Shown in pieces: positions 39,676 to 59,055 of a stretch of 64,000 nucleotides of DNA (positions are counted from its first letter, which is position 1; every line of letters starts with the position of its first letter). The translations under genes and the position numbers were made by a program. The notes beneath the pieces are model-generated. The model was not told the origin of the DNA. It saw only the letters and a program-made list of their open reading frames with translations, and searched no databases. The DNA comes from Cladocopium goreaui (Eukaryota; Sar; Dinophyceae; Suessiales; Symbiodiniaceae): assembly GCA_947184155.2 (NCBI GenBank), contig CAMXCT020000525.1, forward strand, positions 176,927 through 240,926, given 5' to 3'.

Positions 39676-39903
39676 TGTGAATCGGAGGTTATCTCCCCGA
39701 TTATGTACTGATGTTTGGTCTTGAAGTAGTTGTCTTCAGTGATGACGGCACACGAGTCGCGGCTTCAGCATAGCGATACTTTCTTCCGGTGTTGCAGTGG
39801 TCTTGAGCCAAAGGGGCAAGTTGACGCACCCCTTGGCGTTGGATCCTTGAGGGCTGCATTATGTGTGAGTGTACAGTGTTCCGTAGCCTACACTCTATTC
39901 GCA
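39676..39903 (-). repeat. 3' LTR of the giant copia element
   Basis: 228 bp, TG...CA, in the same orientation as the copy at 58827-59055. By eye about three-quarters of positions agree. Conserved blocks are the outer 31 bp (containing the inverted pair AATCGG...CCGATT), CTTGAGCCAAAGG, GCACCCCTTGGCG and TCCGTAGCCTACACTC. Confidence 0.9.
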
Positions 39904-39911
39904 CCCCCCAC
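39904..39911 (-). promoter_or_regulatory. polypurine tract
   Basis: On the sense strand GTGGGGGG directly precedes the TG that opens the 3' LTR. A purine run in this position primes plus-strand DNA synthesis in LTR retrotransposons. A short hairpin (GGCC...GGCC, 39917-39933) lies just upstream. Confidence 0.75.
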
Positions 39912-40421
39912 GCATGGCCAACTTTGTCGGCCACGCGCAAAGGAGTGTCCCTTGAATTGATCCACTAAATCTGCAGCTGTTCATTTGTTGAATTATGGAG
40001 AGCTAAAGTCCGTTCAGAACTTCAATTCTACATGGCGGCTTGCTACGATCTCTACCAAAAGAAAAAGGTTCTGTTCACGTGCATGTCGACACGACGTAGT
40101 CGGTGTCAAGCAATGAGGTTCATCCGATGTGGCGTAGCCAGCATGGAGTCCCACTCAAGCATGTGAATTAAAATCAAAACGCAAAGATGACTATGGAACT
40201 AGAAGTTTACCTTCCCGTTCCTTCGTCGGTTGAGATGTAGACCGCTGTAGAAACTCAGCGTATCGTGCAATGATGTTCAAAAAAAAATGTGGTTCTAAAT
40301 TAGCCGGCTCAGAGTCCTCTCAGAAATCATTCAAAATGAAGTAGAGATGAATCTCGAGCATTGATTGCTGCCTCGCTTCGCCAGGTTCAATCAGGACCTA
40401 TGCAGAGGTCATATCGATTTA
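39912..40421 (-). other. 3' untranslated region of the element
   Basis: About 510 bp between the last stop codon and the polypurine tract, with no protein-like frame on the sense strand. Nothing further recognised. Confidence 0.55.
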
Positions 40422-40590
40422 TCATCTATATCCCCATCCATAGTATCCATGTTGGTTCCAGTCGCCACCACGGTGCGAATAAGATCTTCCACCTTTCCCT
40501 TTGTCTTTTCCACCTTTCTGTGGCGGGGTTACTGGAGCTTGTTTTGGCGGAGGAGCGGCTTCGACGGTTCTCCATGGTGCTGATGATGAT
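40422..40590 (-). CDS. Gly/Lys-rich C-terminal tail of the element's last module
   Basis: In the -1 frame relative to the long frame upstream, the sense strand reads APPPKQAPVTPPQKGGKDKG, then KGGRSYSHRGGDWNQHGYYG and a TGA at 40424-40422. The Gly, Lys, Arg and aromatic composition looks like an RNA-binding tail. The long frame instead ends early at 40529, so I take this as its displaced natural C-terminus. Confidence 0.6.
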
Positions 40591-43500
40591 GCTTTCGCTT
40601 TTGCACTCTGCCCAGTGCTGGTGCTGCCTTCGGGGCTGCTTTCGATTTGCCAGCGGCTGGGTTAGCATGTTCACGATCGGCAGGAACCGGGGTATCAGCA
40701 ATCGCAAGTAAGTGGGCTTCTGTCATGTGGATGCCCCATCTTGGTCGTTGATCATCCCGCTGCTTGATGTGGTTGTAGTCATTGATTGCATCATACAGCT
40801 TCTGGAGTAGAGGTCGCGGCAATTGTCGGCCATTTTGAAGGATCAGATGCAAAACTGAAATTCTTCGAAGTGCAGGTCGAAGAGCACACACAATGTCAAC
40901 TGGGTTCAGTGTGATCGTGTCTTGAAAGTCGACGTTCCTGAAGAAATAAACAGCATTCACTCTGTATGCACCTGCAATGATTCTTCTGACCAGGACATCT
41001 TGTCGGTCAAGGGCTTCGCGGGCGGCTGTGGTCTTTCTCATCTCATCCCTTGTTGAGTCATGTTTCGACAGTTTCTCCATCTCTTCATCGAAGAAGATAT
41101 TTTGCAAGTCTTCATATGTGTAACCGCATTCAAGGGTATACACGAGAAGTCGTTTGAGTACCACCGCCCCATAGTATGCATTGACGAATCCCTCTTCCCC
41201 GATGTCGTCCTTTTGTTGTGGTCGGCCGATTTCCTGGTAGAGCTCTTTCATCTGTTGTGCAGTTGGTTCGATGAGTTCACCATTTTCATCCTCACCTAGG
41301 TATGGCACTCTTGAATCCAAGTCCATCCTAAATTTTCGGTTCTGTTGAAAGTGTTTCCATGCCGTCTCGATGTCTCCACAGAAGTTCCGTTGGAATAGTC
41401 TGTAGATCCTGACGATATGCAACCCAATCTGTAACAGGAGGATTTTGATGAGCTCCGGCTGAGCATCTCCAATTGTACAAGGCTCGATTGGTAGGACCTT
41501 TGATCCAAACTCAATCCTCTTCATCCACTTGGGGTGCTCGATCACTGCATCATGAGCTTCTCCAGCCTCGTACTCCTCGATGTTGATTTCATCGACCTCT
41601 ATTTCTTCATCGTCGTTCTCATCAGTTTGTTTTCCTTCCTCATTGAGAAATTTATCGACCTCATCTTGCTCTCTGAAGTCTCTTCTCTCATCATTGATGT
41701 CGCCCTTCTTCGAGGCTTGATCATCATTTTCTTCTTCTGGTTGAGGTTCTTGTTCTGGACTCTTCATGGTGACGTCATCATCATCTTGCATCAGCTCGTC
41801 GTCATCATCTTCACCTGTCAAATCGATCTTCACTTCTTCCCATGCTTTCTTGACATGGTCTTTGAGATCTTCTTCTCGAGGACGTGATTCGGCACTTGGT
41901 ACAGTAGCCACGGTGATCTTGATTCGCTTCCTCCATCCATGACTTACCAAAAATCCTTTGCACATCACACAAATCGATAATGGTGCAGGGGTCTCCATCA
42001 GACATGCGGGGCATAGTCGATGGTCCTCCTTGCTAGGATGATGAGTGACTGCTAACAATGATATTGCATCATTCCAATCCGGATGTCCAGGGAACAATCT
42101 GTGAGCATGACTGAAGTGACCGGTCTTGATATCGACAAGCTTTCGAAGTTCGTTCAGATCGGGTGATGATTCATCAGGCACAATGTTCCCAATGAGTTTG
42201 TCAAATCGTTCAATGGTGGCCACCCTCCTTGCTCCTTGCACAGAAAGTACAAGTTGATCTTTTCCCTTTGTGATCATAAGACGGTAGTAGTCCTTTTCCT
42301 TCCAATCATAGTACCAAACTGCATCGAATGATTCGAATGGAATTGTTTCTTGGACCAAAATGTGTCCGTCTGCTGACAATCGAGGGGAGAACTTGGCGAT
42401 GGAATCGTACGTGATGTAGATGTAGACAAGATCAGTTTGTTCAATCTTTCTGAACCTCAGCACCGTCTGACTTCGCACGTCCCACGGTGCGAATGGCACG
42501 AAGAACGTATTGATGCGGTCGCCTCCTCCTCCGGGACGTAGTCCTTCTCTGAAGATTTGAGCGATGTTGTCAAAAGTGGTGCAGTGAAATCCTCCTCCAA
42601 GAGTGTATCCGACTCCAGGGTTCATCTGATAGGAAGTCTTCTTGTCTTCGATGTGCACACCGCCTTGAACTCTTGAATGTGCCATAGGGGCACGGATTGC
42701 CACCGGCCATAGCCAAATCTCTCGTTCTGCTGTGCCGATCTCCAACCTCAGTGTGTGTCGTTCAAGTCTCGAGGTCAATCCATCATTGAAGTTGTTCATG
42801 ACGTATTCCAGCTCACCTTTTGTGACCTTGAGTCCTAGCACTTGGGCTCGGATCCTTTTCGTTTGCTTGTACTCAGTGAAGATCACTCTCTGGAAATTGT
42901 TCCACCTCTCAACAAGTATTGGGTAGTTGACGCGGGTCGTTCCAGCCAATGTATGTTGATCTCTCCAAATGTTGTCGTACTTCAAGATCGACTCGACATT
43001 GACCCAACCTGCTTCATCGCATGGTAGTCCACGGTGATTTCGATTGTCCTTGACGCAACCCACGGAGTGGCGTAGCGCTGCATTGAATCTTTTCGACAAT
43101 TCGACTATCCATTGCGGATTTTCCCACTTGTTGCCCATCCACTCATTCTCGCCATATCGATGCACATTACTCCATCCATATCCAAGATATTCTTCTCCAT
43201 TGATGCGAGCAAGTTGCAGTGTGCCGATATTATGGCCATGTGTAAATGGTTGGATGTACCTGAAATTCCAGTTGTCTCCATACTGTTTTCTTTCTTCAGT
43301 AAGCCATTTCACATATGCATCATGGTCTTTGGGGTTCCAAGCGTTCAGCTCCTCAATGGTCGGCAAAACAGGCGGGGATTCCTCAGCCGCACGTTCAATC
43401 AGCACATCAAGCTCATGACGATTCTTCACACCTCGGCTAATTGGGTTGACTTCGACGCCATTCACTAAGTACTGTCCTCCTTCTTCACGATCACCAATGT

Positions 43501-43753
43501 CGTACATAAAGGCTGACTGACTGTAGAAGCATTTGGTCACTTCTTCTTTCTCAGTGAATCTGGTTCTTCCCCAACGTTTTCCTCTTGGCATGACGTTCTT
43601 CGGGAGCTTGTCTTTTCTGCCTCTTGTCGCAGCTTTGGATCTTTCCGAAGACGATGGGGATTTGGACTTCTGGTCCATGATCAATCTCATGCGCCATAGG
43701 GTGTTCTTCATGTTCTCGTCATCTGGTGTGGTACATTCATCAATGTCATGCAT
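40529..43753 (-). CDS. element ORF with Tpt1/KptA-like 2'-phosphotransferase domain
   Basis: 1,074 codons from an ATG at 43753, though the same frame is open upstream to about 43816 and there supplies a zinc knuckle. Residues about 215-480 follow the Tpt1/KptA layout. The N-terminal part has LSKRFNAALRH and GWVNVESIL; the C-terminal part has IRAPMAHS, GFHCTTFDNIAQIFREGLRP and ADGHILVQETIPFESFD. In Tpt1 these match the LRH arginine, the RAxxGHS block, the HGT block and the following strand; here HGT has become HCT. Tpt1 removes an internal RNA 2'-phosphate by transfer to NAD. Residues about 590-620 hold a CPAC...CVMC zinc ribbon, followed by a long acidic stretch and a helical C-terminal part. 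The domain call rests on motif order, not on a search. Confidence 0.65.
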   Translation of the reverse strand: MHDIDECTTPDDENMKNTLWRMRLIMDQKSKSPSSSERSKAATRGRKDKLPKNVMPRGKRWGRTRFTEKEEVTKCFYSQSAFMYDIGDREEGGQYLVNGVEVNPISRGVKNRHELDVLIERAAEESPPVLPTIEELNAWNPKDHDAYVKWLTEERKQYGDNWNFRYIQPFTHGHNIGTLQLARINGEEYLGYGWSNVHRYGENEWMGNKWENPQWIVELSKRFNAALRHSVGCVKDNRNHRGLPCDEAGWVNVESILKYDNIWRDQHTLAGTTRVNYPILVERWNNFQRVIFTEYKQTKRIRAQVLGLKVTKGELEYVMNNFNDGLTSRLERHTLRLEIGTAEREIWLWPVAIRAPMAHSRVQGGVHIEDKKTSYQMNPGVGYTLGGGFHCTTFDNIAQIFREGLRPGGGGDRINTFFVPFAPWDVRSQTVLRFRKIEQTDLVYIYITYDSIAKFSPRLSADGHILVQETIPFESFDAVWYYDWKEKDYYRLMITKGKDQLVLSVQGARRVATIERFDKLIGNIVPDESSPDLNELRKLVDIKTGHFSHAHRLFPGHPDWNDAISLLAVTHHPSKEDHRLCPACLMETPAPLSICVMCKGFLVSHGWRKRIKITVATVPSAESRPREEDLKDHVKKAWEEVKIDLTGEDDDDELMQDDDDVTMKSPEQEPQPEEENDDQASKKGDINDERRDFREQDEVDKFLNEEGKQTDENDDEEIEVDEINIEEYEAGEAHDAVIEHPKWMKRIEFGSKVLPIEPCTIGDAQPELIKILLLQIGLHIVRIYRLFQRNFCGDIETAWKHFQQNRKFRMDLDSRVPYLGEDENGELIEPTAQQMKELYQEIGRPQQKDDIGEEGFVNAYYGAVVLKRLLVYTLECGYTYEDLQNIFFDEEMEKLSKHDSTRDEMRKTTAAREALDRQDVLVRRIIAGAYRVNAVYFFRNVDFQDTITLNPVDIVCALRPALRRISVLHLILQNGRQLPRPLLQKLYDAINDYNHIKQRDDQRPRWGIHMTEAHLLAIADTPVPADREHANPAAGKSKAAPKAAPALGRVQKRKHHHQHHGEPSKPLLRQNKLQ

Positions 43754-43770
43754 TCCACCACAAATGAAAC
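43735..43770 (-). other. zinc-knuckle-like motif across an ORF junction
   Basis: The frame continuous with the downstream ORF reads SSVQYCFICGGMHDIDEC, a C-x2-C-x3-H-x4-C pattern one residue shorter than the retroviral C-x2-C-x4-H-x4-C knuckle. It lies upstream of and across the ATG at 43753, showing that translation normally comes from further upstream. Confidence 0.6.
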
Positions 43771-43797
43771 AATATTGAACACTTGATGCGTCAGCAA

Positions 43798-45624
43798 TCA
43801 GCTTCTCAAGTTGTCACGGATGTTCCGCACCTCAGTTCGGCGCTTCTTCGCTTCCGAAGGTTGGCCCCCCATGTCCTCTTCTTCCTCCTCAATTTCGATG
43901 TCACCAGCTCCGGCATCAGTTTCTCCTGAAGTCTGTTCTGCTCGAGGGCCCCGCGCCGTAGGCGTCGTGGTCTCCTCTTCAGGCTCACCAACTTCATCCT
44001 CCTCCTCATCGCTTGATGAGACTTCAATCATTTCAGGATGGTCATCGTAGTTGGCTTCCGGGAGCATCGGCATTCTGGTGATCTTCTTCTGCAGGAGTAG
44101 GTCAAAGATTCCCGCTTCTTTCAAGACTGTTGTCACCATATTGTTCTCGACCGGTGGGATGTATGCTTTCCTGGATCGGTTTCGCTTCGTGTTGATGGTG
44201 TCGGTAGGTCGACATGAACTGCTGAAGAGCCAGAATGATTCTTCCAATCCTGCGAGGCAACTGTCAAGGTTTGCCCCCCATCCACCAAACATAGTAGGGA
44301 ATTGAATACCCAGGTCAAGCATCCCAAGCCAGAATTCGAAAATGTCGCCGACATACTCAGCTGTCGCGGTTGGATTGAGCATGGATTCGATCTCCTCCTT
44401 GGTCAATACGGTCTTCATGTAGTCATGATAAGCGACGTTTCCACCATCCCAAAGCAGTCTGTAAAACCATCGAATTCGGTGTGATCCACCTCCGCAGTCC
44501 TCTGTACGAGTTTCACGTTGCACAGTGAATTGGGGCAACAGGTCTCGTCTGCATTTTCCCTTCACCATGTATGCGGGCATGCGGATGGCACCTCGATGTG
44601 ATACCTGTTTGAGAACATCGCTTGTCGTCCTGTATCCTGAGAGCATTGCAAGTGTTGCAGTAACCAAAAATCCACGGAGCTCCTTTTCGGCTTCCATTTC
44701 TCTCCAGTCAACGCACTCGTTGTAGATGTTGAGCAATCTTGCAGCTACTCTTGCATCCTGTGAAAATTCATCCATCCCAATGTCTTCAGTTCCGTAGATT
44801 GCCGCTCTTGTCCAATTGCTTGCGCAGTTCAGACATCTTGTGCGGTTCTCAGTGCAGGTATTCAATCTCGAATCATTTTGATGAAATCCTTTGCGCACAT
44901 CGCACATCAATTCGGAATCTTCGGTCACCTCAACCCAATGCTCATCCACATCTGTCAGGGGCTCCGGGGTGAATACTCCTCGTCGGATGTCTGACCATGC
45001 TTTTCTCTGGACCGAATCTTTCATGTGCTTCATCCCTCCGATGATGTTTGCCGATCCAGCTTGAGCATCTGTGATTTCTCCAGCACGAATGCTGGGAACA
45101 ACTCGTGGATGTTCTGTGCATCGTTTGATGGTTTCAATGTCAAATCCGGTGTTCTTCACATGGACGCAATCTTCATTCAGGTCATGGACTGTATCATGAT
45201 CCATAGCACAATGTAAGAAGACCTTCTGTCGCATCAGTGACTTTTCAAGCATAGCCCAAATGACTTCCTTGCCTTCACCTTCTTTCCAATAGAAAGGCTC
45301 ACGTCCACAAGCATATATCTGTTTCCAGAATCTTTCATTGGTGGAGTGAATGATGCCCTTTTCCCTCAAGATTCTTGCAAGCTCCTCGGCCATGGATACA
45401 ATCGAAGATTGGGACCCAAGAAACCGGGCGTCTTTCAGAATGTTGACGAAAATTGGAAGAGGTGCTGCTTGGCTGATATCTGTGATGATCTCCGCCAATT
45501 TGATGATGAAGTCTGCATTTGGCATCAGTATGCGATTTTGTCCTCTGAATAATGCTGCGAAAGAGATCCAAATGTGAACAGTGGCACTTGAGAACGTGTT
45601 GGCGTTGGTTCGTAGGAAAGTCAA
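43798..45624 (-). CDS. element ORF, unidentified 608-codon segment
   Basis: The frame opens at TTG, not ATG, and its upstream codons (ETGNEA) continue the previous segment, so it is the middle of a polyprotein. It has a mixed alpha/beta N-terminal part (FIIKLAEIITDISQAAPLPI, FVNILKDARFLGSQ) and a cysteine cluster (NTCTENRTRCLNCASNW). A helical region with WFYRLLWDGGNVAYHDYMK follows. The C-terminus is strongly acidic (SSSDEEEDEVGEPEEE) and ends with a basic patch KKRRTE. The N-terminal part might be an SGNH-like hydrolase fold, but I cannot show that. It ends by frameshift at about 43805. Confidence 0.6.
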   Translation of the reverse strand: MTFLRTNANTFSSATVHIWISFAALFRGQNRILMPNADFIIKLAEIITDISQAAPLPIFVNILKDARFLGSQSSIVSMAEELARILREKGIIHSTNERFWKQIYACGREPFYWKEGEGKEVIWAMLEKSLMRQKVFLHCAMDHDTVHDLNEDCVHVKNTGFDIETIKRCTEHPRVVPSIRAGEITDAQAGSANIIGGMKHMKDSVQRKAWSDIRRGVFTPEPLTDVDEHWVEVTEDSELMCDVRKGFHQNDSRLNTCTENRTRCLNCASNWTRAAIYGTEDIGMDEFSQDARVAARLLNIYNECVDWREMEAEKELRGFLVTATLAMLSGYRTTSDVLKQVSHRGAIRMPAYMVKGKCRRDLLPQFTVQRETRTEDCGGGSHRIRWFYRLLWDGGNVAYHDYMKTVLTKEEIESMLNPTATAEYVGDIFEFWLGMLDLGIQFPTMFGGWGANLDSCLAGLEESFWLFSSSCRPTDTINTKRNRSRKAYIPPVENNMVTTVLKEAGIFDLLLQKKITRMPMLPEANYDDHPEMIEVSSSDEEEDEVGEPEEETTTPTARGPRAEQTSGETDAGAGDIEIEEEEEDMGGQPSEAKKRRTEVRNIRDNLRS

Positions 45625-46019
45625 TGCTTCGTTGCCAGTTTCAAGAAATCCTCGGGCTTCTCCAGGGATTCATAGGGAAGTTGGTACACCTTGATGGATG
45701 AAAGACCCATGTTGTTGAGCCCAGCCTCAATGTCATTGATGATTCTCGAGCTAGATCTCGTTTGGTAGGTCAAATCCGTCAAGATGAGAGCTTTGTTGTT
45801 TCTCACTTGTCCTCCCAATTCATCCCATTTGTCTAACCAAGGCTTCCCAATGATGAACTGTCCAATCTTGTTTCCCAACTTCTTGAGCTTGACTCGAATC
45901 TCGCCCTCCACCGTATCTTCAATGCCCAATGTCAACATAGCTAGGACCTCCGTCACTGGATATCCTTTGCATCTGACAAACTCGTGGTCGTGATGATGTA
46001 GTGGTAGAGCTTCAGCCAT
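45621..46019 (-). CDS. element ORF, short bridging segment
   Basis: This frame bridges the end of the 2,288-codon frame and the next one. Its informative part reads HDHEFVRCKGYPVTEVLAML, then LGIEDTVEGEIRVKLKKLGN and ALILTDLTYQTRSSSRIIND. The first residues overlap the end of the upstream frame; WLKLYHY joined to HDHEF gives a smooth protein, so a base seems missing near 46000. No family recognised. Confidence 0.5.
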   Translation of the reverse strand: MAEALPLHHHDHEFVRCKGYPVTEVLAMLTLGIEDTVEGEIRVKLKKLGNKIGQFIIGKPWLDKWDELGGQVRNNKALILTDLTYQTRSSSRIINDIEAGLNNMGLSSIKVYQLPYESLEKPEDFLKLATKH

Positions 46020-49000
46020 TCGTAGTCATTCTCATTGATCATGTGGGAATCAAGTTGACCTTCTGTCAGCATGTTGAAAGACAGAGCAGCATGAAATGTC
46101 AATCTTCTCAAATACTGTTTCCAGATCAAATTGGTTCCATACTTGTGAGTAGTGTGAGGACCCTCTACAATGGAAAGCACAAAGTCTTTGCCGGATCTTA
46201 AGAATGCAATTCTCTGTTCTTCACGTGCATAATCTTCGGCAGTATGGAGACGCACTTCCACGGTTGAAGGTTTCCTCCTCTTCATCCAGTCTTCAGTTGG
46301 AATCCAATTCTCATCTCTTTCTGGTTCGGTACGACCTTGAGATGTCGCTCCAGGTCCAGATCGGAAAGCTGCATGGGTCGACGAAGATGAACCTCCGCCA
46401 GTCGATGATCTCGGCATCTTCTTCGGTTGAATGTTCGAACTTTGTGATTGTTGCGATGCCTTTGGTTGTGATCCCTCCGTAGGAGCGGATGTACTCTGGG
46501 CACTCGGTCCAGTTGATGTGTCATCATTCATCCATGAAGGTTCCTCATTGTTCCAGAAGTCGACTTCATCGGGTCTTCGTCCATCTTTGAAGTTCAGGGG
46601 AACATCCCAGTTATCGAAATTGTGCATGCCTCCAGCCGTTCCAGCTTGAGTCTCGGTCATCACGGTGGTGAAATCTTTGAGAGAGCTGTGGCAGGCATGA
46701 CGTCTTTCTTTTTCAGTGTACCTGGCTCCTTCATCGGCAATTGAGACATTGTAACCATGCCCGATCAGGATTCCTTGAGGGATGTCAAAGACTTTGAGGA
46801 TCGAGAACTGGATCTCGGATAATTCTGCTACCTTCGACAAATTCCCATCTCCTCGAGCGCTGGTCTTGTGTCTTTCAAGTGTCGTGCCGAGGGCTAACAG
46901 GCACAAGAAATGATTCTGGGCTGCACTCCTTCCTTTTGGTTGGTTGGTTTCAAATGCAATCACATCCTTCATCACATCCTGCAAGATGATCTGATTCGAT
47001 GGGTTCTGCTCGTTGTGATACCTCAATGCATGTCCTAGGTGCCTCATCTGGATCTCAACCATGTTCTTCATTGCCGTCAAATAGCTATCATTGTCAGATG
47101 GAGACTTCGGATTCACCTTGGTCAATTCGTCCATGACTTTGAAGTATTCGGCGGTCCTTGTCACGGCTAGCCATGATGTTGCACTTGGATCTGTGTTGAA
47201 TGATGGTGTTCCTCGATAAATTTGCTTCATGCTTCGGATCTTCGCCTCTGTCTCTGCAGCGGTGGCTTGATCATCAAAAGGTTCGGGGAAGTGTCCTTTG
47301 GACAATACGATCCAGAGCTCATCAAGTCTGTCGTAGATCTCTTTGTCCATGAAGCGTCCCATAGTTGCATCTTCATATGGGCATCTGCTGGCAAAGACCT
47401 TCACGAATCTCGACCCTTTTGACAAAAACTCCCATCCGGAACACTTCTTCTCGATGTCCTGCGCTCCCTGCAGCAACTTGTAGGCTACTTCAAGGGCTTG
47501 GGCAGTTGCTTCACTGGTGTGCCTGGAGTTCGCGAAGTAGGCTGAGTAGACAACTGCAGGCGGCATGCCAAACCTAATCCATTGGTTGGCTGTGTCCTCA
47601 TCTGAGATCAGGCGAAAGTTCGAGCCTCGGGTGTCTCGGAATGGTAATGGAGTCTTGGCTGCAATGGTTCCTTCAGACAATCCCTTCAGCACTCGTATTG
47701 CAACGGTGATTCGGCTTCCGGAGAATTGCCCTACTGAGTTCAGATCATGGGTTTCGGCCATCCCGCTTTGTACAGAAGAAAGTTGTACGGACCGTAGGTC
47801 TCGTAACAACAGCTCGAGCAGCGGAAATAGTTGTACGAACCGTAGGTCTCGTAACAACCAATCGGAGTCGAATTCAGAAAGCGGTCGACACGAAAATGAA
47901 AAGTGCCACGAAGAAAGAACCGAAGTTGATGTCAATCTCGAAAAGCACCAGTGCAGTAGCGATCGCTCGAACGAATGGTCAATGGCGTCGAGCTCTCGAG
48001 TAGCACAAACGGATGTTGCCACCGACTTGATTGGGTGACTGCGGACATTCTCGGAATCACGAGACATTTCAGCTTTCAGTTGTTCATCACATGCAAGCGG
48101 CTTCCAACGTTTCATCACTCTGACGTTCACAAATGGACTATTCCTGGTTACATGATCATTGATTCCATTCATGATGATTTTGGCTATCCACTTGGTGTAA
48201 ACTTGAGTAACGCGAGTTTCCCTACCGGCACACTCAGCATGGTCATGACGGCGATCACATCTTCTATGAAGCTTCGGAAAAGACACCCCCCATGTAACAA
48301 TCTTCCATGGTTTCTTGATTGGTTTGGGAGTCTCTTGGAATTGTGATTTCAAGCCATACATGCATCCATCAAATCTGTGCTCATGAGATACGGTTCCCTC
48401 CACAAGGTCAGTCATTCTACGGTCCTTCCAGTAGTCACAACCCCTAGGCAACTCAAGCATGGCTGGTGATCCCATGTTGATAAGTTCACTTAGCACTGAT
48501 GTAAACACTTCCCACATCGCCCAGAAGATCTGCTTCTTTGCTTCGATGAGTTGTGTCGTTGCTTCGCTTACCCATCGGTTGATTCGGTTCCATGGTGAAC
48601 CTCCTGTACATGGACCTGCAAAGAACACTGAATCAAGTTTGGTCCGAAGGCATCGCCTTGCTTTACTGATTCCGTACGGAGAGAGCATGTCGTCATCTTC
48701 AGTGATTGGCACGACATGAAACTTCATTTCGTCCTTCATTTTGTTCTGCAAGAACGTAAACCAATTTCTCTCTTCCGAACATAACAAGACGAAGCATGGG
48801 ACTGCTTGAGGAACTTCGATCAAATTGATTGCAAGGGAAAACTTCGCATACTTTGATGTCATCAAGTCACAAGGTGATTTGGAAAATTGAAATTCCAAAG
48901 TTCTGTTTTTCTTTTCTCTCCAAAGGATTACCGACACCTTGGGATGGTCAACCTCATGTTTGCCTACTTCAATGTGATATTGATAGGGGACAAAAACATC

Positions 49001-52000
49001 AGTGATGGGAATAGTATTCACGTCATTGCAATTGGTGCAGAGTGTGATCACTCCCTGACTCACTTTACAGTTCTTACCTCCATTGATCACTTCAGCATTG
49101 GCGAGCACCTTGAATGTCGATCTTCCTGTCCAAAACTCATTCAACTTGTTTGTTGATTCATGATTGTCGCCCTTGAATCTCCATATGTCTTTGATCACTC
49201 GAGTGTTGGTTTTGAACTTTTGTTCAGTTTCCCTTTCATCACATATGATCCTAGGGTCACAGGGACAGTCTTCGCAATCCTGTGGCACAAAGTTTTGCCT
49301 TCTTGGCGTTTTGTGAATTCGGATCAATGTCTCTTTCCCATCCCACTGCCAATGGTCTTCATTTTTCTTACCTAACACTTGGGATTTTCGGGTGGATTTT
49401 ACAAACGGAATATTATCATTGATGTCCAATTCCGGATGCTTATGACATAGGCCAGGTGTTGAAGTGGACTGTGGGTGCCCCTTTTCACTGTGCGAATGCC
49501 ATCCTTCACCCTCACTCCCCCCATGAACAAGGCGCATAAGCGTATTGATCACACGTGTGGCTGGCTGAAGGCACTGGTGAATGGATTTCGGGTGTTGAGA
49601 CGGTGATGTCTGTGCATCTAAAAACAAGGCATCAACCGAGAACATCAGCATTGGTGAATCGGTCGGATGCTGTACACGGTCATGTGGTGTTGACGCACAC
49701 GAGTCACGTAGTGAGCTCGAGTGGGCAGGCGGGGCATGCACGTGCTTTGACGACATCACCCGGTGGGTTGAGGTCGTTGAAACGGATTGTGAAACAGTGT
49801 CCGGGATCAACGGCTGCTTGTTGGGCGAATGATACTGAAAACACGCTCGTTCAACCCACTTATCAAATCTGATAGCCTGCTCTGGTGGAGATGCACGGTG
49901 TTCGACCTTTGTCCACGCACCATTGAGAAGAACCCATGTGGATCTCAATACATCTGGCGGCACGATCAAGCCGGGTGGCTTAGGACGATAAAACACCGGT
50001 TGCTTGACGACAAAAATGGGATCCATACCTGGCAAGTATTGTAGCTTCTCTTTACTAGTCAAGCCCTTCCTATACACTTCTTTCGGCAAAATAGGGGTTT
50101 CCGTGTATGGGAAGTTTGGGATGTCCTCAGTTTTGGATTGGAAAACTTGGCGAGTAGTCATATCGACATCGGTGCTTGGCTGCAACATGTCCAATACTTC
50201 TTTGCTCTGCAAGTCCTGAGGTTCCAACAAGTTGATTAGCATACAAGCTTTCTTCCATGCCATGGGATTCTTGAACCCTTTAGTATGGATATCTGCTGCC
50301 ATTTTGGCTGTAATTTCATAGATCAATACAAAATGATCCTTTTGGAAATGTTCATGCATGGAGGCAATGGAAATACCATGTGTGCGCTCCAAATGACGCA
50401 TGGTTGGATTCCGTCCTGATCTGACAACACCAATCATACCTTGATTATCGTCATGAAACAGGAGTTGAGGAAAAACTTTGGCTAAGACTTTCCACAGACT
50501 TAATGCGGGGATTCCTAGAGTCCTAAGTGCAGTATCTGCAGCCACAATTTCAGCTTCGGGGGTAGAATGACTAACACACCCTTGTCGCTTACTTCCACCA
50601 GCAAGTGGGAATCTTGTGAACTTACCTTGGACTTGTAAGTGCGATCCTGAAGTTGATCTCAAGGATTGGGCACATCCAGCGAAATCCGCATCTGCAAATA
50701 GTCCTAATGATAAATCTTCAATTTTGTCTCCGACCCATCCTATCATTTTGAGGGACAATGTGGAATTAACATAACACATTAGGTGATGAAGACGGGCGTC
50801 ATCATCCTTTGTCCATTTGGTCACATTACGTGCCAATGCATTGATGGATCTCAAAAGGTCAAACCGCGCAATGCGGGCTGCATACAGCAGCTTCATAAGC
50901 ACACTAGCTGCATGCGGAGCTAGATTCCCTCGGCTCAGCTTCTCACTGTCTTGGCCAGGACATGAGTTGCCAGTCTCGGAGAGAGCAGGCATATCTGGAT
51001 CGAAGGAATGTGCACACCAAGGACACTCAACTTTGCGTTTTCCATCGGAAGGAGCTCGATACGGGCTGCTTTTCGTTTCCTCTGGAAGGCTTGGAGTTGA
51101 TACCTTTTTCAATTTTGTGTCCTTACCAATGATGTCAAGATACTTTTCCACCGATAACTTTAACAATCCTTCCATGTTATAAGTTATGGTCTTGACTTTC
51201 TTACCATTATGCAATTGGGTCTCACCTTGGGATAAAACGCACCCTAAGTAAAGTCCCAAATCGGTTTCGGGTTCAATGCGCAGAACAGTGCGCAACATTT
51301 CCCAACCTTTGGCCAGATTTTCGGAGGGCCCAGCAAGCTTAAGGTCATCCACATAGATTACCAACAGCAATTTGAGCTCATCATGAAAATACATAGAAGG
51401 CCATTCCTCTCCAATGGGCTTAAAACCAATTTCTTGAACTTTCTTGTCACAATGTTGTTCCCACATCGTGCCTGAATCGGGATGTCCATATAGGGCTTTG
51501 TCGAGTCTTACGACAGGGCGACGGAACTTCCAGTACTGTATCTCCGGAGGCCATGCATCAGTGGGTAACTCCACCCAACACAAAGGTCCCTTCAACTTAG
51601 CCTGGATGTAAGCCTGAATCGCATCTGCCAACTTGACGGAGTGCCCAGGAAGACATCCGTAAAAATCTGCCCATCGTGAGGCTTCGAAGGAAGCAGGGGA
51701 ATTTCCCAAGTCTTGGAAAAATGCTGCCTCCCAATGCTGATTCTTCACCTGATTCCCTAGCAGAACGCCTCTTCCCTTGAATTTTCGACCAGGATTGTCT
51801 TCGGACAACTGGTAATTCTTTTCCACGCATATGCCATGGACCCTGGCCATATGTACTTCCTTTTTGTTCTTCTTGGCCTCTGCAACAACATCGTCATATT
51901 CACGAACCATTGTAAAGTCGAATACCTCTTGATCACGAAGGCCTTTCCACTCCTTGAGCATTGCCTCTTTGGCCTTTGGGTTAGACTCAATCTCAGCTCT

Positions 52001-52819: not shown

Positions 52820-55800
52820 TCTTGTATGGGTAACCCTTGACGTTCAACTTGACCTTCTCACCATCGTCATTGAGGTATATCTTCCCATCTCCAGCTTTGC
52901 CCGACTTCCAATGGTCTGGCTGTGCGTCGATAAGCTCCTGGAGAGTCATCTCTTCTGGATCTTTGTCTTTGTCGAAGATACCCTCGGAGTCATCAAGAGG
53001 CTTCTTTGAAACTTTTCCACCACTCGGTCCAGGTCCACCGTCATCTCCGTCATCAAGCTCGTCATCGTCTTCGTCATGGTCATGTTCTTCATCATCTCCA
53101 TGAGGCACTTTGGAAGGATCGCCATCGAGGATTTCTCTTTCTTTCATTCCTTCCAATGTGGTGTTCACCCTCTCATATTCTTGCTTGCATGGAAATGTCA
53201 ATGGAGTGACCATCTCGACCTTCTCGGTCAAATGAGGTTTGAGAAGACGGTGTTCAGGTTTGCTAGCATCGTCACCAAGATTCTGATGTACGAATTCACT
53301 CAGAGGCCATACTTTGTATTGTCTTGACCAATGCATCCCTGGACCAATGTGATACCCTGCAAACACTCCTGGAATAGAGTCAGGTCCGAACTTATGAAGT
53401 TGTCCTGCTTCTCTGGTCTTCGGAGGCTTGTAGTTCACACGAGCACCATAGGGAATGAGTTTGCCAGCAAATTCAGATCCGTGGAGTTTGCACCAAGCGC
53501 TCAATTCATCATCGTTGGGTTCTACGTTGAGTAGATGACATACGCAAAGGATTGCCGTTCTCCAGAAACAAGGTGGTAATCCAGCTTCCAACAGACATGT
53601 AGAAGTAGCTGTGAGGATAAATTGGTTAGTCCTCTCGGCAATTGAATTGGTTTGAGGTCTCCCAGGCAACGAATGATCAATTGGGATCTTCATCTCATTC
53701 ATAGCTTCAATGAATTGAGGAGCATGATCAGAGTAGGCCTGTCTGACCTTCTTTGCGCCGATGAACTGTTTCACTGCTCTGACTACATCGTCCTTGGTCA
53801 TTCGATCAGATGGATAAGCACCAATGATCCCTGTAAAACAGTCTCTGACAACCAACACTTCCTTCTCGAGGATCAATACGTCATCATGGACTTTGGATGT
53901 GTCCACTGCATCAAAGGTAATGAGGTCGCCAAACTTCTTGAGTTCCCTTTTGTATGCACCACGACGAGTCTTGAAGTGCTTCATCTTTGCTCGAATGCAT
54001 GAGTCGCAATATGGATTTTTGTACCTGTGGGTCAGCTTGTGATTCAAGCTATTGGCTTCTCTCTTGAGTGTTCCTCTTTTGGCTACCCTGGACTCACCCT
54101 CGACGACATCGATCTCAATGTCATCTTCATCACCTTCAGCGGCGTCTTCAGGAGCACCATGACCATCATCTTCAAAGTCAGTCTCGTCACCAGGAGGTCC
54201 GTCAAACGGAGTTCCAGGTTCGTATTCGCCGTCTTCAGGTGGTTCTTCCTCTTCTCCAGGGGATGCCGAATGTTTCTGCCGGTTCATTGCTCTCCTCTTC
54301 TTCTTGTTCTTGAGCTTCTTGACGTATCGGGAACAGTTGTGGTTCTCAGTCGATGTCTCAAGACCACTTTCTCCATCGAGGTGTACTCTTCGTGATGGAT
54401 GACCAACATCATCAATATCGTTGAGATCGTTGAATCCAACTTGAGAATGTGTCAATAGGTCATGGATCTTCGATGCATGATGGCATTCACGAGGGGTGCA
54501 TTCGTATGTTCCAAGATCGACATAGGGGATATTGTCGTGGATTGTCAGATCTACGCGTTCTCCATCCTTCGTAATCATGAATGGCATTTGATCAGATGGC
54601 CATACAAAGGAATATCCTTCTTCCATGCATCGTTTCCCAAGAGACATCACAGACGGAGTGTCGTCCAGTACATAAGCATGAGATGTCACATCAAAGGTTC
54701 CCAGGTCGATCTCCGCTTCTGTTTGGGTAGCAGTTGAACCGTTGGCGGTGTGGAACATGATGGGGTCACAAGTTCGTTGCTTCAAATTCATCCTCTCGGC
54801 TTTCCTTGCGGAAATCAGATCGTGTCCGCTGCCAGAATCCAGGATGAATCTTCGATCTTTGGCTTGTACTGGTAATGAAATGCACATCAAGTTCTTGGAT
54901 TTCATGAGGGATTTTCCAGCTTCGTGTTCCACAAGCTCTTCAATGAAAGTCAAGTCATCACGATCATCGTCCAGCTTGATCAACATGTCGAACTTGGGGC
55001 CAATGATGATTCTAACTTCATCAACAAAACGATGGAGTCCGCATCTGTCCATGATGATTGCTTTGGCCCGTGCTCGGACTGAGCCAAGTGTGTTGTCGTA
55101 CTTGGACTGATCGTCGGTCAAATCATCGACTTTCCAGAAGACATACTGCTTGTTGGGGTCACGATACATACGCTTGGGTAGTCCCTCTTGGTAGTTCTCA
55201 ATTGCAATCTCGTGCACTTCAGGTTCCAGATCAAATGAGATTCTGCGAACATCAGAAGACTTCTTTGCGCTGGCTATCCTCGGTGAGGTATAATCCAAAG
55301 AATCTTCATTGTCGCTATCAAAGAAGGAGTCAATGGTAATGGGAGTTGCTTTCTTCTTTGGTGTTTTCTGGCTGGTCCTCTCCGATGATGCTGAAGGCGA
55401 TTGGTCCGCATGTAGGAATTTACTCCCAAACGTGCAGGTACCCTTCTGCCAATTCCAACATACCTTCTTTTTGGGTCCAGCTGAAGATGAACTTCCTTTA
55501 CTCTTTCTTGATGAATCTCGACTTCCACTTCTGCCTTTCTTACCTTTCATCTTGGCATCATAGACCTTCTGAGAATGACTGTAAAGACATTTGTCACCTT
55601 TGTTGCATCCTCCTTTATTGAAGAAGTAGTTGCAGAAAATCTTCTTCTTATCAACGGGTGAAGACGATCTTCCCTTCCCACCTTTGCCTTTCTTGTTGTT
55701 CTTGTCGGCATGAGATTTCGGAGAAGGTGTCGGAAGTACTGATGCAGCTTCACTCTTCGCCTTCGCTTTAGGTCGTTTGGGAGGATCACCTGTAGACGAT

Positions 55801-57038
55801 GCAGCTGCTTCATTCTCCTTCTTGGTCTTAACGGGAGCAGCAGGTTTGTCAGCATCTTCCAGGGCAGGCGTCGTCTTATTAGAGGACAATGACAGTTTCA
55901 CTGCACGTTCTCTATCTTTCAACAGTCGTTCTTGCTTCCCTCGTGCTATGTATCCTTTGATCATACCAGTTAGGTAAGCATAGGTCTTCTCAGGATGCCC
56001 TTCATCAAAGGTTTTGTATCGGTTGATATCAAAGGCCATGAGCTTTGAGTGTTCAATCTTCCGGAACAATGTATCACGCAGGGAATTGTTGGAAGGCAGA
56101 TCATCATGTTTCATATTGTATACGATGTCAAGCCACTTGTTGTAGAAGGCCTCAAGCTGGTCATCTCCATAGTAGTTGAACATATACAAATGATGGGCGT
56201 TGTAGAGAACTTCAGTGTGGTCAGGTGACTTGAAGCTAATCAGTATCATTGCGAATAGTTCTCGTCCCTTGATGAAGTCCCCACTTCTCCCATACAATTG
56301 GTTCTTCATGGACATGTCATACTTCACTTGCATGGACTTGTCCCCAGCATTGTCAATGACTTTCCTCAAGGCATTGGAGAGCTTGGCATCAATGGATTGG
56401 AATCTCACATCAGGTGCTTTGGCCAGAGCCTCCAGGTCAGGTTGATCTGCAAGACACGGAGCTAGCCATGCTTTCCAATCTTCATAGTTTCGATCTCCAC
56501 TTGCAACACAAACTTCATGAACAACACTTCCCTTCCAGGATGAAAGTTCAGTGGTCTTAGGCCAGGGTTGGAGGCTGATCTTTTCGGCTTCTCTTAGAGA
56601 TACGGATGACTTGGATCTATCCCTCTCAAGGTTCTCCAACTCCTTGACATTGGTGTTGTACTCATTCCTGAGCTTCTCGAAGGCTTCAGCTTCTGCTCGG
56701 TATTCCTGCTCTTCATCGTTGGCGCGATCTTCAGCTTGAGAGAAATTGTTCTTGTAATAATCTTTCCGATCTTCCATCTTCTTCAACTCATCTTGTAGAT
56801 TTCGAACTTCAGTGTTCCTCTCTTGCTTCATCTCGTCCAACTCTGCTTTCAATTTGGCACACTTCTCTTCACATTCATTCCGAGGCATAGCACTACTGGG
56901 GTACCCATGTAATGTAGTCGGTCTATTCAATGATGAAGAAGAATGAGCCTGGTTTTCCAACTTCAGGGCAGCGATGGTGCTTGACATCTCTTCTACCTCA
57001 GCGAAACGCTCATTAGCCAATTGATGCATCTCGGTCAA
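52572..57038 (-). CDS. gag-pol: element gag-protease-integrase ORF
   Basis: 1,488 codons opening at TTG; codons upstream (KGATDYSIPESH) show it continues the coiled coil. Layout: coiled coil to about residue 150; Gag helical domain (LSSWKGSVVHEVC to about 380); Lys-rich linker; a CCCH finger C469-x8-C478-x5-C484-x3-H488; a second finger lacking its third cysteine (C527, C535, H543). Retropepsin carries FILDSGSGHDLIS (D734). The integrase zinc finger is H1000-x3-H1004 and C1011-x2-C1014; its catalytic residues are probably D1043, D1104 and E1135, with 30 residues between the last two. After this come the GYHIGPGMHWSRQYKV block typical of copia, acidic linkers, and a basic end where the frame shifts by +1. 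Confidence 0.85.
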   Translation of the reverse strand: MTEMHQLANERFAEVEEMSSTIAALKLENQAHSSSSLNRPTTLHGYPSSAMPRNECEEKCAKLKAELDEMKQERNTEVRNLQDELKKMEDRKDYYKNNFSQAEDRANDEEQEYRAEAEAFEKLRNEYNTNVKELENLERDRSKSSVSLREAEKISLQPWPKTTELSSWKGSVVHEVCVASGDRNYEDWKAWLAPCLADQPDLEALAKAPDVRFQSIDAKLSNALRKVIDNAGDKSMQVKYDMSMKNQLYGRSGDFIKGRELFAMILISFKSPDHTEVLYNAHHLYMFNYYGDDQLEAFYNKWLDIVYNMKHDDLPSNNSLRDTLFRKIEHSKLMAFDINRYKTFDEGHPEKTYAYLTGMIKGYIARGKQERLLKDRERAVKLSLSSNKTTPALEDADKPAAPVKTKKENEAAASSTGDPPKRPKAKAKSEAASVLPTPSPKSHADKNNKKGKGGKGRSSSPVDKKKIFCNYFFNKGGCNKGDKCLYSHSQKVYDAKMKGKKGRSGSRDSSRKSKGSSSSAGPKKKVCWNWQKGTCTFGSKFLHADQSPSASSERTSQKTPKKKATPITIDSFFDSDNEDSLDYTSPRIASAKKSSDVRRISFDLEPEVHEIAIENYQEGLPKRMYRDPNKQYVFWKVDDLTDDQSKYDNTLGSVRARAKAIIMDRCGLHRFVDEVRIIIGPKFDMLIKLDDDRDDLTFIEELVEHEAGKSLMKSKNLMCISLPVQAKDRRFILDSGSGHDLISARKAERMNLKQRTCDPIMFHTANGSTATQTEAEIDLGTFDVTSHAYVLDDTPSVMSLGKRCMEEGYSFVWPSDQMPFMITKDGERVDLTIHDNIPYVDLGTYECTPRECHHASKIHDLLTHSQVGFNDLNDIDDVGHPSRRVHLDGESGLETSTENHNCSRYVKKLKNKKKRRAMNRQKHSASPGEEEEPPEDGEYEPGTPFDGPPGDETDFEDDGHGAPEDAAEGDEDDIEIDVVEGESRVAKRGTLKREANSLNHKLTHRYKNPYCDSCIRAKMKHFKTRRGAYKRELKKFGDLITFDAVDTSKVHDDVLILEKEVLVVRDCFTGIIGAYPSDRMTKDDVVRAVKQFIGAKKVRQAYSDHAPQFIEAMNEMKIPIDHSLPGRPQTNSIAERTNQFILTATSTCLLEAGLPPCFWRTAILCVCHLLNVEPNDDELSAWCKLHGSEFAGKLIPYGARVNYKPPKTREAGQLHKFGPDSIPGVFAGYHIGPGMHWSRQYKVWPLSEFVHQNLGDDASKPEHRLLKPHLTEKVEMVTPLTFPCKQEYERVNTTLEGMKEREILDGDPSKVPHGDDEEHDHDEDDDELDDGDDGGPGPSGGKVSKKPLDDSEGIFDKDKDPEEMTLQELIDAQPDHWKSGKAGDGKIYLNDDGEKVKLNVKGYPYKIGDDGRRMFKTSLRPKGTYSPEEWRKLSQSDRNTILKAEKKKLEKKEADDKAKRLVEEKKKKQRRRRRKIQRKTGRAKVQGR

Positions 57039-57060: not shown

Positions 57061-57384
57061 TCAGTCGCACCTTTTGATCACGAGTCTTCTGTCGTTCAAC
57101 ATCTTGATGGACTTACCTGCATCCCTGTGAGCACGCTCAAGAGAGTCTTTTTGGGCTTCAAGTTCAGTATGAAGGCGAGCAATGGCTGTATCCCTGTCAT
57201 TGATTTCATTGTGCAAACTGTCGAACAAGTTACTCGTCACATTCGGATTGCTACTCATGTGATCGATCTTGTTCAGAGCATCTTGATACTTCTTACCAGT
57301 TTCATCGAAATTTTGCTGGAAAGGTTTTGAGCAGGTTCTCAGTGTCAATGAGTTCAGTTCTGTTCTGCAAGTACAACTTGTCAA
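57061..57384 (-). CDS. element Gag extension, coiled-coil segment between two frameshifts
   Basis: The frame reads FDETGKKYQDALNKIDHMSS, then LFDSLHNEINDRDTAIARLH and TELEAQKDSLERAHRDAGK, a coiled coil that continues the ORF upstream and leads into the one downstream. The two joins are +1 changes at TTTCCAG (near 57322) and in the AAAA of ATCAAAAGG (near 57073). Confidence 0.7.
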   Translation of the reverse strand: MTSCTCRTELNSLTLRTCSKPFQQNFDETGKKYQDALNKIDHMSSNPNVTSNLFDSLHNEINDRDTAIARLHTELEAQKDSLERAHRDAGKSIKMLNDRRLVIKRCD

Positions 57385-58768
57385 CTTCAGCCTTGGATTC
57401 CTTCAAGCTGTCACGCTCACGCACGGCTTGCATATACATCTCGTATAGTGGTCCTCCATGCGGTGATCTGCTTGGTGAAGATCTTCTGGCTTGTTGACAG
57501 GAAAGTTCATGATACTGATTCTTCGATTCAGTCAGTTGTTGTTGCATTCGATCTAAAAGACTTTGTTTCATGTGTAGTTCCGAACGTAGTCCCATTATCC
57601 TCATGTCCCGCATGCCGCCTGATTCAGCTAGAGATTCTTCAGAAACCTTGTTCTCAGAAATCGCTAGTCGAGATTGTAAGTTTTCATTGTGGATCACCTG
57701 CAATCGAAGTTGCGATTCTTCCAAAGCTAAGTGATGCTCACATTCTGCATAGCGGTCATGTTCAGATCTTATGTTACTACGGAACTCCTTCATGATCTCG
57801 TCCCTCTTCATGTCAGCAGCATCGAGCTCAGTTTCCAGTCGTCTAACGTTCATGGCCATGGTGTGCTTCATCGTTTGGTTCTGATTGGCAACCTCGAGCA
57901 TCTCGATTTGTAAAGCACATGTTTGGTCGTTAGCGTAGCCGACCGCTAGAGCTTCTTGCTTGGCATTCATCTCTGCGTTTTCCAGTTCCAGTCTGAGTTG
58001 ATTGATGTGAGCATTCGCATCAGCGCCCACATGCACCATAATTGCGTTCGCTTGTCCCATTTGTTCATCAAATTCCGAACGTAGTCGTGAATATTTGAAT
58101 TCCAAACGAGATGCAGCTTCATTCGACATAGCCTGATACCTCTCCAACTCTTCGATCCTGTAGGATGCACCTTCATCTTCTTGTTGTGCAGCCTGTAACT
58201 CGAAGTTCAGCATCTGGAGTTGTTCGGTCATCGACATCATCTCTTGATGAGTGGTGCTTTCCAGGAAATTAAATTGTTGATAGGCATATGCTGTCGTCTC
58301 GGTCAATCTTGCCTGAAGTACGGATTCTTCTTCAGTGGCCTTTTCCAGTGATGTCTTGTATTCAGCTAGTTCACTCTGATAAGCGGTGAAGATGTCGCTA
58401 CCACTCGATGGGGCGTTCACTTGCTGATAAGATCCCGTCCCTGATGGAGTAGCGTCCTGAATCGGTGAAGGCGGATTCGACGACGTAGTCTTTGCCTTAG
58501 TCCTTGGAGTCATCGGAGGCGACAATTGTCGTGCAGATGATCTTCTCTTTCCAGGTGTGCTGTCCCTATCTTCAATTGCTTGCATTGTCGAAATTTGTCT
58601 CCCTCTAGGAGCAACCAGAGGTCGCCTGGGTAGGCTCGTTCTCAGTTCTGAGGCATCGCTTCCACCAGTGTCGATACTCTGTGAAGAATTTGACTGCGTG
58701 CCGGCAGCTGGTGCAACGGCATGTCCAGAGAAAGAAAATGCGTTATCACTGCTATCCTGTTCAGTCAT
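57302..58768 (-). CDS. element N-terminal coiled-coil Gag extension
   Basis: 488 codons from a true ATG at 58768-58766, 58 bp inside the 5' LTR. Residues 1-125 are disordered, rich in Ser, Thr, Pro and Arg (ASELRTSLPRRPLVAPRGRQ). From about 130 onward the protein is almost entirely coiled coil (FTAYQSELAEYKTSLEKATE, EMMSMTEQLQMLNFELQAAQ and similar) with heptad hydrophobics. With the next two frames it makes an approximately 750-residue coiled-coil region ahead of the Gag core, much longer than in ordinary copia Gag. It may drive particle assembly. No catalytic motif is present. Confidence 0.75.
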   Translation of the reverse strand: MTEQDSSDNAFSFSGHAVAPAAGTQSNSSQSIDTGGSDASELRTSLPRRPLVAPRGRQISTMQAIEDRDSTPGKRRSSARQLSPPMTPRTKAKTTSSNPPSPIQDATPSGTGSYQQVNAPSSGSDIFTAYQSELAEYKTSLEKATEEESVLQARLTETTAYAYQQFNFLESTTHQEMMSMTEQLQMLNFELQAAQQEDEGASYRIEELERYQAMSNEAASRLEFKYSRLRSEFDEQMGQANAIMVHVGADANAHINQLRLELENAEMNAKQEALAVGYANDQTCALQIEMLEVANQNQTMKHTMAMNVRRLETELDAADMKRDEIMKEFRSNIRSEHDRYAECEHHLALEESQLRLQVIHNENLQSRLAISENKVSEESLAESGGMRDMRIMGLRSELHMKQSLLDRMQQQLTESKNQYHELSCQQARRSSPSRSPHGGPLYEMYMQAVRERDSLKESKAEVDKLYLQNRTELIDTENLLKTFPAKFR

Positions 58769-58800
58769 CTGTAAGGCCCGCGGCTACCCGCTCGTAGGCT

Positions 58801-58826
58801 CCGTAGGAGTCCTACGGCTGATAACC
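58801..58826 (-). promoter_or_regulatory. leader hairpin and primer-binding region
   Basis: Immediately inside the 5' LTR the sense strand reads GGTTATCAGCCGTAGGACTC. GGTTATCAG resembles the plant-type copia primer site TGGTATCAG with one extra base, so an initiator-tRNA primer is possible. The overlapping CCGTAGGA-G-TCCTACGG (58801-58817) is a perfect 8-bp stem. Confidence 0.5.
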
Positions 58827-59055
58827 TGTGAATCGGAGGTTATCTCCCCGATTATGTGCTGTTGTTTGATCTTGAGGTTGATGTTCTCAACAATGACGAC
58901 ACGGGAATTGCAGTTTCAGCATGGCGGCGTTTTCTCTTGGCACCTGCAGTGATCTTGAGCCAAAGGAGCAGATTGATGCACCCCTTGGCGGTGGACAATT
59001 AAGAGTTGAATTATATGGGAGTGTGCAGTGATCCGTAGCCTACACTCCATTCGCA
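58827..59055 (-). repeat. 5' LTR of the giant copia element
   Basis: 229 bp, TG...CA. On the sense strand it starts TGCGAATGGAGTGTAGGC and ends CCTCCGATTCACA. The block TTTGGCTCAAG at about 58931-58941 (sense strand) equals the last 11 nt of the dinoflagellate spliced leader, and the antisense strand carries TCCGTAGCC (59031-59039), equal to its 5' part. Both are kept in the other LTR. Confidence 0.9.

Follow-up and report, generated by a model that had tools for sequence, protein, structure and literature searches.

A 19.4-kb Ty1/copia-type retrotransposon of the dinoflagellate Cladocopium goreaui with a divergent Tpt1/KptA domain beyond RNase H

Results

A giant copia-type element

A 64,000-nt stretch of the Cladocopium goreaui genome (assembly GCA_947184155.2, contig CAMXCT020000525.1, positions 176,927 to 240,926, forward strand; hereafter the window) contains a single long terminal repeat (LTR) retrotransposon of the Ty1/copia type that occupies positions 39676-59055 on the minus strand and is 19.4 kb long. 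This is what the initial annotation had proposed from the letters, and the sequence, the other copies in the genome and the substitution pattern bear it out. In our judgement it is quite likely that this is an autonomous dinoflagellate element with a single Gag-Pol polyprotein of ~6.1k residues, in which the usual copia proteins are joined to extra domains that include a divergent, probably active member of the Tpt1/KptA family.

The direct repeats with TG...CA ends that had been noticed at the margins of the element are its LTRs, and the purine tract ahead of the 3' LTR is a run of GGGGGG (Table 1). The copia order protease-integrase-reverse transcriptase (RT)-RNase H holds as well, with Pfam matches for the protease and RT and with motifs or the profiles of relatives for integrase and RNase H. 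Relatives give rve and SH3_retrovirus matches at the integrase, and of 25 relatives that were scanned 22 have RVT_2, the best with 1.2e-15. Coding sequence continues for ~9.8 kb past the end of RNase H (~50225) to the last stop codon. The extra domains and the unusual size for a copia element, both part of the original claim, find support in the sequence, in the other copies and in the pattern of substitutions. Between the first ATG, at 58768, and the stop codon at 40422-40424, nearly all of the minus strand is coding. The description of this sequence as near-continuous is correct to that extent, but the frame of the window copy is broken at no fewer than five places and its two LTRs are only 79% identical. 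Because such LTRs do not fit a body that resembles the other copies, we rejected LTR divergence as an age clock for the window copy; the mismatch may have arisen by gene conversion, by recombination between copies or through a misjoin.

A profile search of the protein past RNase H named the divergent Tpt1/KptA domain and, by way of a relative (P0214, which matches zf-CCHC_3 at the same place with 3.7e-4, below the cut-off), a zinc knuckle. The remaining domains past RNase H matched no model in the libraries searched.

Copies in the genome and substitution pattern

Copies were sought in the 1.17-Gb genome from which the window derives. The last open reading frame (ORF; 1,094 aa) yielded 42 scored matches, the window included, from 4,498 first-look candidates, with identities of 95-100%; 38 of the 42 contain no internal stop and 15 lie inside open frames of at least 3,000 aa, the longest frame being 6,124 aa. 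The DNA of the 3' LTR had 40 scored matches, paired at distances of 19.07-19.20 kb on seven contigs and of 22-44 kb on six others, the wider spacing presumably resulting from later insertions. Ten copies were fetched, each as two halves. Nine possess both LTRs, span 19,297-19,426 bp and contain the same domains as the window copy; for the tenth the 3' LTR alone was found. Recent insertions are among them: four of the nine copies have identical LTRs (100%), three have LTRs with 99.4-99.6% identity (for one of these three the alignment was partial), and the other two have LTR identities of 93.4% and 76.8%. The copy on contig C1535 is open through both halves (3,164 + 2,959 codons), giving one continuous frame of ~6.12k codons that starts shortly behind the 5' LTR and ends close to the 3' LTR. 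Target duplications of 5 bp, assessed in the ten two-ended copies (window included), are exact in five, two of which lie within simple repeats, have one mismatch in two and are lacking in three. The possible duplication ATCTA of the window copy is uninformative because (TAGA)n stands on both flanks.

We looked for copies that stop after RNase H and for a second element nested in the first, as the initial annotation had suggested, and found neither in the copies examined. A nested or composite element was rejected on the basis of the LTR spacing, the equal length of the copies, their shared domains and a repeat search (repeats of 40 nt or more) that detected no second LTR pair inside the element. 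The frame breaks and mismatched LTRs of the window copy would suit a broader possibility, that the additional 9.8 kb stem from a host gene or a second element acquired by chance through nesting or transduction and without function for the element, and the capture of ORFs into the part downstream of pol is documented for LTR elements (PMC6431247, a review). We nonetheless regard chance capture as very improbable, given nine more copies of the same length and domain content, the lack of an inner LTR pair, low ratios of nonsynonymous to synonymous substitution (dN/dS) and the same domain order in 13 of 14 relatives. An assembly artefact, in which collapsed repeats would account for both the 19-kb size and the shared content, appears to us exceedingly improbable. 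The mismatched LTR pairs of the window and C2139 copies and the three copies without a target duplication do suggest some misjoins or recombination, but one length recurs in ten copies on different contigs, seven of the ten have exact or one-mismatch duplications, four have identical LTRs, and homologs are present in other data sets.

The dN/dS values in Table 1 are uncorrected and pooled over pairs among up to 11 copies; because the pairs are not independent, they constitute a description and not a test. They are low in the conventional enzymes and in the extra domains alike. The coding part past RNase H looks to be under selection by this measure, and the segment X1b looks like a free linker.

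The Tpt1/KptA domain

Enzymes of the Tpt1 family remove a 2'-phosphate with the use of NAD+, and transfer of ADP-ribose onto 5'-phosphate ends of RNA or DNA is also possible (PMC6582358). The window domain is a divergent member of this family, its membership being established through its relatives. Three of these match Pfam PTS_2-RNA with 67-100 bits (7.2e-23, 1.9e-28 and 3.5e-18), and one, P0306, matches a solved tRNA 2'-phosphotransferase 1 at 1.6e-19. Profile comparisons, made with disjoint sequence sets, extend to the window type: a profile of nine distant relatives picks up the window protein (P0005) at 3.3e-7 among 327 proteins, and the profile-profile comparison of nine distant relatives with six window-type domains gave a probability of 98.2% (E 6.2e-14, 198 columns), compared with 0.23% for the reversed control. 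An alignment of the P0005 type against PDB sequences returned a single chance match (E 1).

In characterised enzymes a tetrad corresponding to Arg18, His19, Arg68 and Arg121 of Clostridium Tpt1 is essential (PMC6333775). Its equivalents in P0005, R248, H249, R322 and R433, are kept in 158/159, 158/159, 162/162 and 164/166 aligned rows, and the H-x-T motif is conserved to a similar degree (H410 in 165/167, T412 in 165/166). The window domain probably retains NAD+-dependent activity. The cleaning or modification of RNA ends by 2'-phosphate removal is a plausible role for it, though we would not rely on it, and ADP-ribose capping of 5'-phosphate RNA or cDNA ends would be a less probable one. An inactive domain, which the particle would retain as a structural part or for binding RNA or NAD, would agree with the low identity to canonical Tpt1 and with the altered second tetrad residue in some relatives; we consider it unlikely in view of the near-invariance of the tetrad and the H-x-T motif among aligned homologs of the window type.

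Relatives and further families

Three protein searches for relatives returned 119, 119 and 179 proteins, and from the third the best 120 of 179 were used. In one search, every RT relative recorded with an organism name, among the matches listed, is a Symbiodinium protein. RT, X1 (the undescribed domain that follows the post-RNase H region in Table 1) and Tpt1 occur in this order in 13 of the 14 relatives that combine RT and Tpt1 in one protein; the other one has no X1. The distances among RT domains correlate with those among Tpt1 domains (Mantel r 0.55, p 0.0005, 2,000 permutations, 15 sequences) and with those among X1 domains (r 0.39, p 0.0005, 49 sequences). A scan of four relatives chosen for a dUTPase entry in their precomputed Pfam annotation (P0300, P0315, P0316, P0325) confirmed the domain in all of them, at differing places in the polyprotein. 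P0316 has a NADAR domain near the N-terminus in addition to its dUTPase.

The Tpt1 model PF01885 has 150 scored matches in the window's genome, all above the cut-off. Open frames of 4,020-4,039 aa hold 14 of them. The three highest-scoring matches fall within short frames and could represent normal Tpt1 genes or those of a contaminant. A second family was read in one copy, in four separate stretches (contig C2546, 480863-493462, minus strand). This is a 12.6-kb LTR element with one 4,026-codon frame, identical 173-nt LTRs, the target duplication GTTTT, a GAGGGGGG tract, the 15-nt putative primer-binding site (PBS) of the window family, and the order protease-integrase-RT-RNase H-X1-Tpt1. A further family has 17 scored copies in frames of 2,371-3,923 aa, a single frame encoding protease, integrase, RT, RNase H and X1. 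What the window contains is not one odd element but a representative of a clade.

Contig C1 (7.4 Mb) of the same assembly has strong matches to cytosine-C5-methyltransferase (DNMT) and Tpt1 in short frames and a tRNA-Ile-like match, and it looks bacterial.

The X1 domain and the methyltransferase question

Twenty-two residues are identical in all of 16 aligned X1 sequences and include PC.GGS, N, E.P..C.YW, GC, KPW, C and H; a wider set of 55 sequences is more variable. X1 is found in the same protein in 48 of 62 non-redundant relatives with RT and RNase H, and 13 of the 14 proteins without it stop at most 340 residues past RNase H (the remaining one has 988 residues). In 49 proteins X1 lies after RT (37), between integrase and RT (9) or nearer the N-terminus (3), and therefore moves as a module. 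Pfam, NCBIfam, PHROGs and PDB gave no convincing match. Of ten PDB matches (E 0.0067 to 1.8), eight were to antibody heavy chains over a short stretch and were deemed due to chance, and neither X1 nor RT was confirmed in IMG/VR.

Cytosine-C5-methyltransferases have a characteristic motif layout with a catalytic PC and an ENV. By eye, X1 has its PC at the place of the former and its E.P at the place of the latter, and one of the 16 sequences matched a phage DNA methyltransferase family (E 0.068). X1 might on these grounds be a DNMT-like domain and the element akin to the DNMT-carrying retrotransposons that exist in Symbiodinium (PMC5890265), a reading that we hold to be possible but doubtful. 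PF00145 does not recognise X1, however, and the searches named above offered no convincing methyltransferase family in Pfam, NCBIfam or PHROGs. An X1 profile, from which 5 of the 55 representative rows had been left out as short or doubtful, gave no significant match to four DNMTs of the same genome, and the reversed control scored higher. Copia elements of Symbiodinium, moreover, are described in PMC5890265 as devoid of any DNMT domain. X1 is not demonstrably a methyltransferase at the level of sequence. DNMT matches number 125 in the same genome, and many DNMTs have been described for Symbiodinium (PMC5890265).

Spliced leader, primer-binding site and insertion targets

The dinoflagellate spliced leader is DCCGUAGCCAUUUUGGCUCAAG (PMC6050394). 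Its last 11 nt, TTTGGCTCAAG, occur in the sense strand of the LTR at positions 92-102. Exact TTTGGCTCAAG is present in 37 and GGCTCAAG in all of 41 window-family LTRs, the 41 not being independent. Among 14 non-redundant LTRs the 12-nt interval at the leader end ranks 4th of 217 in conservation; none of 2,000 shuffled LTRs contains the leader end, and within the window exact TTTGGCTCAAG is restricted to the two LTRs, on the element sense strand in both. Near the LTR start, 12 of the 14 non-redundant LTRs have GGCTACGG, the reverse complement of part of the leader 5' end. The leader end is absent from the LTR of the single second-family copy read, and therefore is not a feature of the whole clade. 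The leader ends in AG and could itself be a splice acceptor. Retrogenes with relic leaders have been described as trans-spliced anew (PMC12014239), and the window element may likewise be trans-spliced.

The putative PBS GGTTATCAGCCGTAG, the same 15-mer in the window family and the second family, lacks a TGG at its start, and its complement CTACGGCTGATAACC resembles an anticodon arm whose loop would be CTGATAA. In Drosophila copia a tRNA half serves as primer, and the PBS there likewise opens without TGG. A short perfect inverted repeat, CCGTAGG-ACT-CCTACGG, occupies 58801-58817 in the leader that overlaps the PBS.

Eighteen of 23 insertions adjoin AT-rich, alternating, low-complexity DNA, a joint criterion that is satisfied by 2.2% of the background (binomial p 4.5e-26), where the thresholds were chosen after viewing the flanks and the background consisted of stretches of the window alone. 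One flank per insertion was used, C656 and C1667 were excluded as duplicates of C641 and C1449, and a broader set of 43 flanks contained two that were internal sequence misread as flank. Among the other five insertions, those in the window and on C1608 are in (TCTA)n; in the window the (TAGA)n-type repeat extends over 39635-39675 and 59055-59363. The second-family copy sits in AT-rich DNA, not in a simple repeat.

Table 1. Features of the element in the window, listed from its 5' to its 3' end, with pooled dN/dS where calculated
Feature	Position	Strand	dN/dS	Basis or remark
5' LTR	58827..59055	-		229 nt, TG...CA; holds TTTGGCTCAAG at 58954-58964
PBS-like GGTTATCAGCCGTAG	58812..58826	-		immediately after 5' LTR; putative tRNA partner
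N-terminal Gag part, polyprotein start (P0001, from first ATG)	57305..58768	-		coiled-coil look by eye; no Pfam match
Gag core region	55881..56576	-		kept in distant relatives
Two CCCH zinc fingers	55404..55646	-		zf-CCCH models 1.9e-4 to 8.8e-4, below cut-off
Aspartic protease	54504..54878	-		Pfam Asp_protease_2, 1.2e-6
Integrase, zinc-binding part and DDE core	53274..54047	-	0.017	motifs; profiles common to relatives
Reverse transcriptase, YVDD	51125..51985	-	0.012	Pfam RVT_2, 1.9e-8
RNase H region	50225..50914	-		motif and position; profiles common to relatives
Post-RNase H region	49301..50125	-	0.27	weakly constrained
X1, undescribed domain	48158..49198	-	0.069	core ~220 aa; motifs PC.GGS...N / E.P..C.YW / GC / KPW / C..H
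X1b, open linker after X1	47738..48157	-	0.78	low synonymous rate
X2, undescribed region	46607..47707	-	0.075	
X2b, short conserved region	45983..46336	-	0.083	
X3, undescribed region	44134..45648	-	0.114	
Zinc-knuckle region	43343..43780	-	0.040	C-x2-C-x3-H-x4-C by eye
Divergent Tpt1/KptA domain (RNA 2'-phosphotransferase, ADP-ribosyltransferase superfamily)	42239..43252	-	0.110	Pfam, relatives, profiles
Zn-ribbon-like region after Tpt1	41900..42229	-	0.117	relative P0296: weak zinc-ribbon match, 0.034
Conserved C-terminal domain	40694..41533	-	0.097	
Stop codon of last reading frame	40422..40424	-		sequence
Purine tract GGGGGG	39904..39909	-		before 3' LTR
3' LTR	39676..39903	-		228 nt, TG...CA; holds TTTGGCTCAAG at 39802-39812
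(TAGA)n simple repeat, insertion target	39635..39675	.		3' flank; similar repeat beside 5' LTR

Elsewhere in the window, a host-like ORF at 19305-19907 (minus strand) matches glycosyl hydrolase family 99 (1.3e-9), and tandem arrays with units of 21 nt or of 12/24/36 nt overlap open frames at 26960-27183, 27417-27635 and 32717-33345.

Discussion

If the element functions as we propose, its single Gag-Pol polyprotein would be cut by its own protease, and the extra enzymes would accompany the nucleic acids of the element or act on them. The likeness of the PBS complement to an anticodon arm, considered together with the presence of Tpt1, leads us to propose one possible use for the latter. A cut tRNA may bear a phosphate that has to be removed before priming, and Tpt1-type chemistry could help with this step, so that a tRNA cleaved within the anticodon arm becomes a usable primer.

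Several observations weigh against the interpretation of the element as autonomous and equipped with an active Tpt1 domain. Most of the fetched copies carry frame breaks, and only genomic frames underlie the stated polyprotein length. A search for the tRNA primer did not find it and gave two tRNA-like matches, one of them on a bacterial-looking contig. The window Tpt1 domain itself reaches 23.5 bits with Pfam PTS_2-RNA (6.3e-5), below the cut-off of 26. A profile of three relatives (P0296, P0306, P0322) failed to list P0005; in a profile-profile comparison with the window type it reached 93% (E 2.9e-7, 118 columns). The first two tetrad positions read Arg-Gly in place of Arg-His in P0310, P0317, P0319, P0327 and the second family, and P0285 has neither residue.

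A more far-reaching scenario would see in these elements a giant copia clade of dinoflagellates and other marine protists, in which an NAD+-dependent RNA-end enzyme and the X1 enzyme family are ancient parts of Pol. Tpt1 would heal or cap the ends of RNA, cDNA or a cut-tRNA primer, and the window-family LTR would be built around the host spliced leader, with trans-splicing as a step within the replication cycle and the leader end serving in strand transfer. We regard this scenario in its entirety as speculative and rather unlikely.

Should the proposal of an autonomous element with an active Tpt1 domain be correct, LTR retrotransposons can retain for long periods an enzyme of RNA repair or ADP-ribosylation for which the reports found concern cells and some viruses only, and a part of the uncharacterised coding sequence of dinoflagellates would be explained. 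The leader end in the LTR represents a concrete and testable link between trans-splicing and retrotransposition, and X1 is a widespread undescribed domain that is now open to study.

Comparison with known systems

Our literature search covered titles and abstract openings, with subscription papers and preprints outside it, and found, among the papers listed, no report of Tpt1/KptA in retrotransposons. A KptA survey (PMC9503650) contains neither retrotransposon nor retroelement in its main text, the review PMC6431247 does not contain the word copia, and PMC11453091 mentions copia once and Tpt1 never. A few RNA viruses do have KptA/Tpt1 embedded in a replicase polyprotein, as the window element has it in Gag-Pol, but these are positive-strand RNA viruses and not retroelements (PMC9503650).

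Large size and added enzymes have precedents in other retroelements. Ogre and Burro are giant LTR elements, Burro with a huge polyprotein and extra domains; both are gypsy-like with other cargo, and the size of Ogre is due mostly to its LTRs (PMC6431247), whereas the window element has LTRs of 0.23 kb and is filled with coding sequence. SymbioLINE-Dnmt and SymbioDIRS-Dnmt3 are likewise dinoflagellate retroelements with nucleic-acid-modifying enzymes under selection, but they belong to the LINE and DIRS classes and their DNMTs are recognisable by PF00145, unlike X1 (PMC5890265). Ty3/gypsy elements of orchids have acquired an m6A RNA demethylase domain, another instance of an LTR retrotransposon gaining a domain that modifies RNA, although superfamily, host and enzyme are different (PMC9289625).

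With Ty1/copia (Pseudoviridae-type) elements the window element has in common the TG...CA LTRs, 5-bp duplications, the order protease-integrase-RT-RNase H, RVT_2, one Gag-Pol frame and, as in Drosophila copia, a PBS-like sequence that does not open with TGG. It differs from them in its total length of 19.4 kb and in ~3,300 more residues past RNase H, which comprise X1, X2, X3, the zinc knuckle, Tpt1 and the C-terminal domain.

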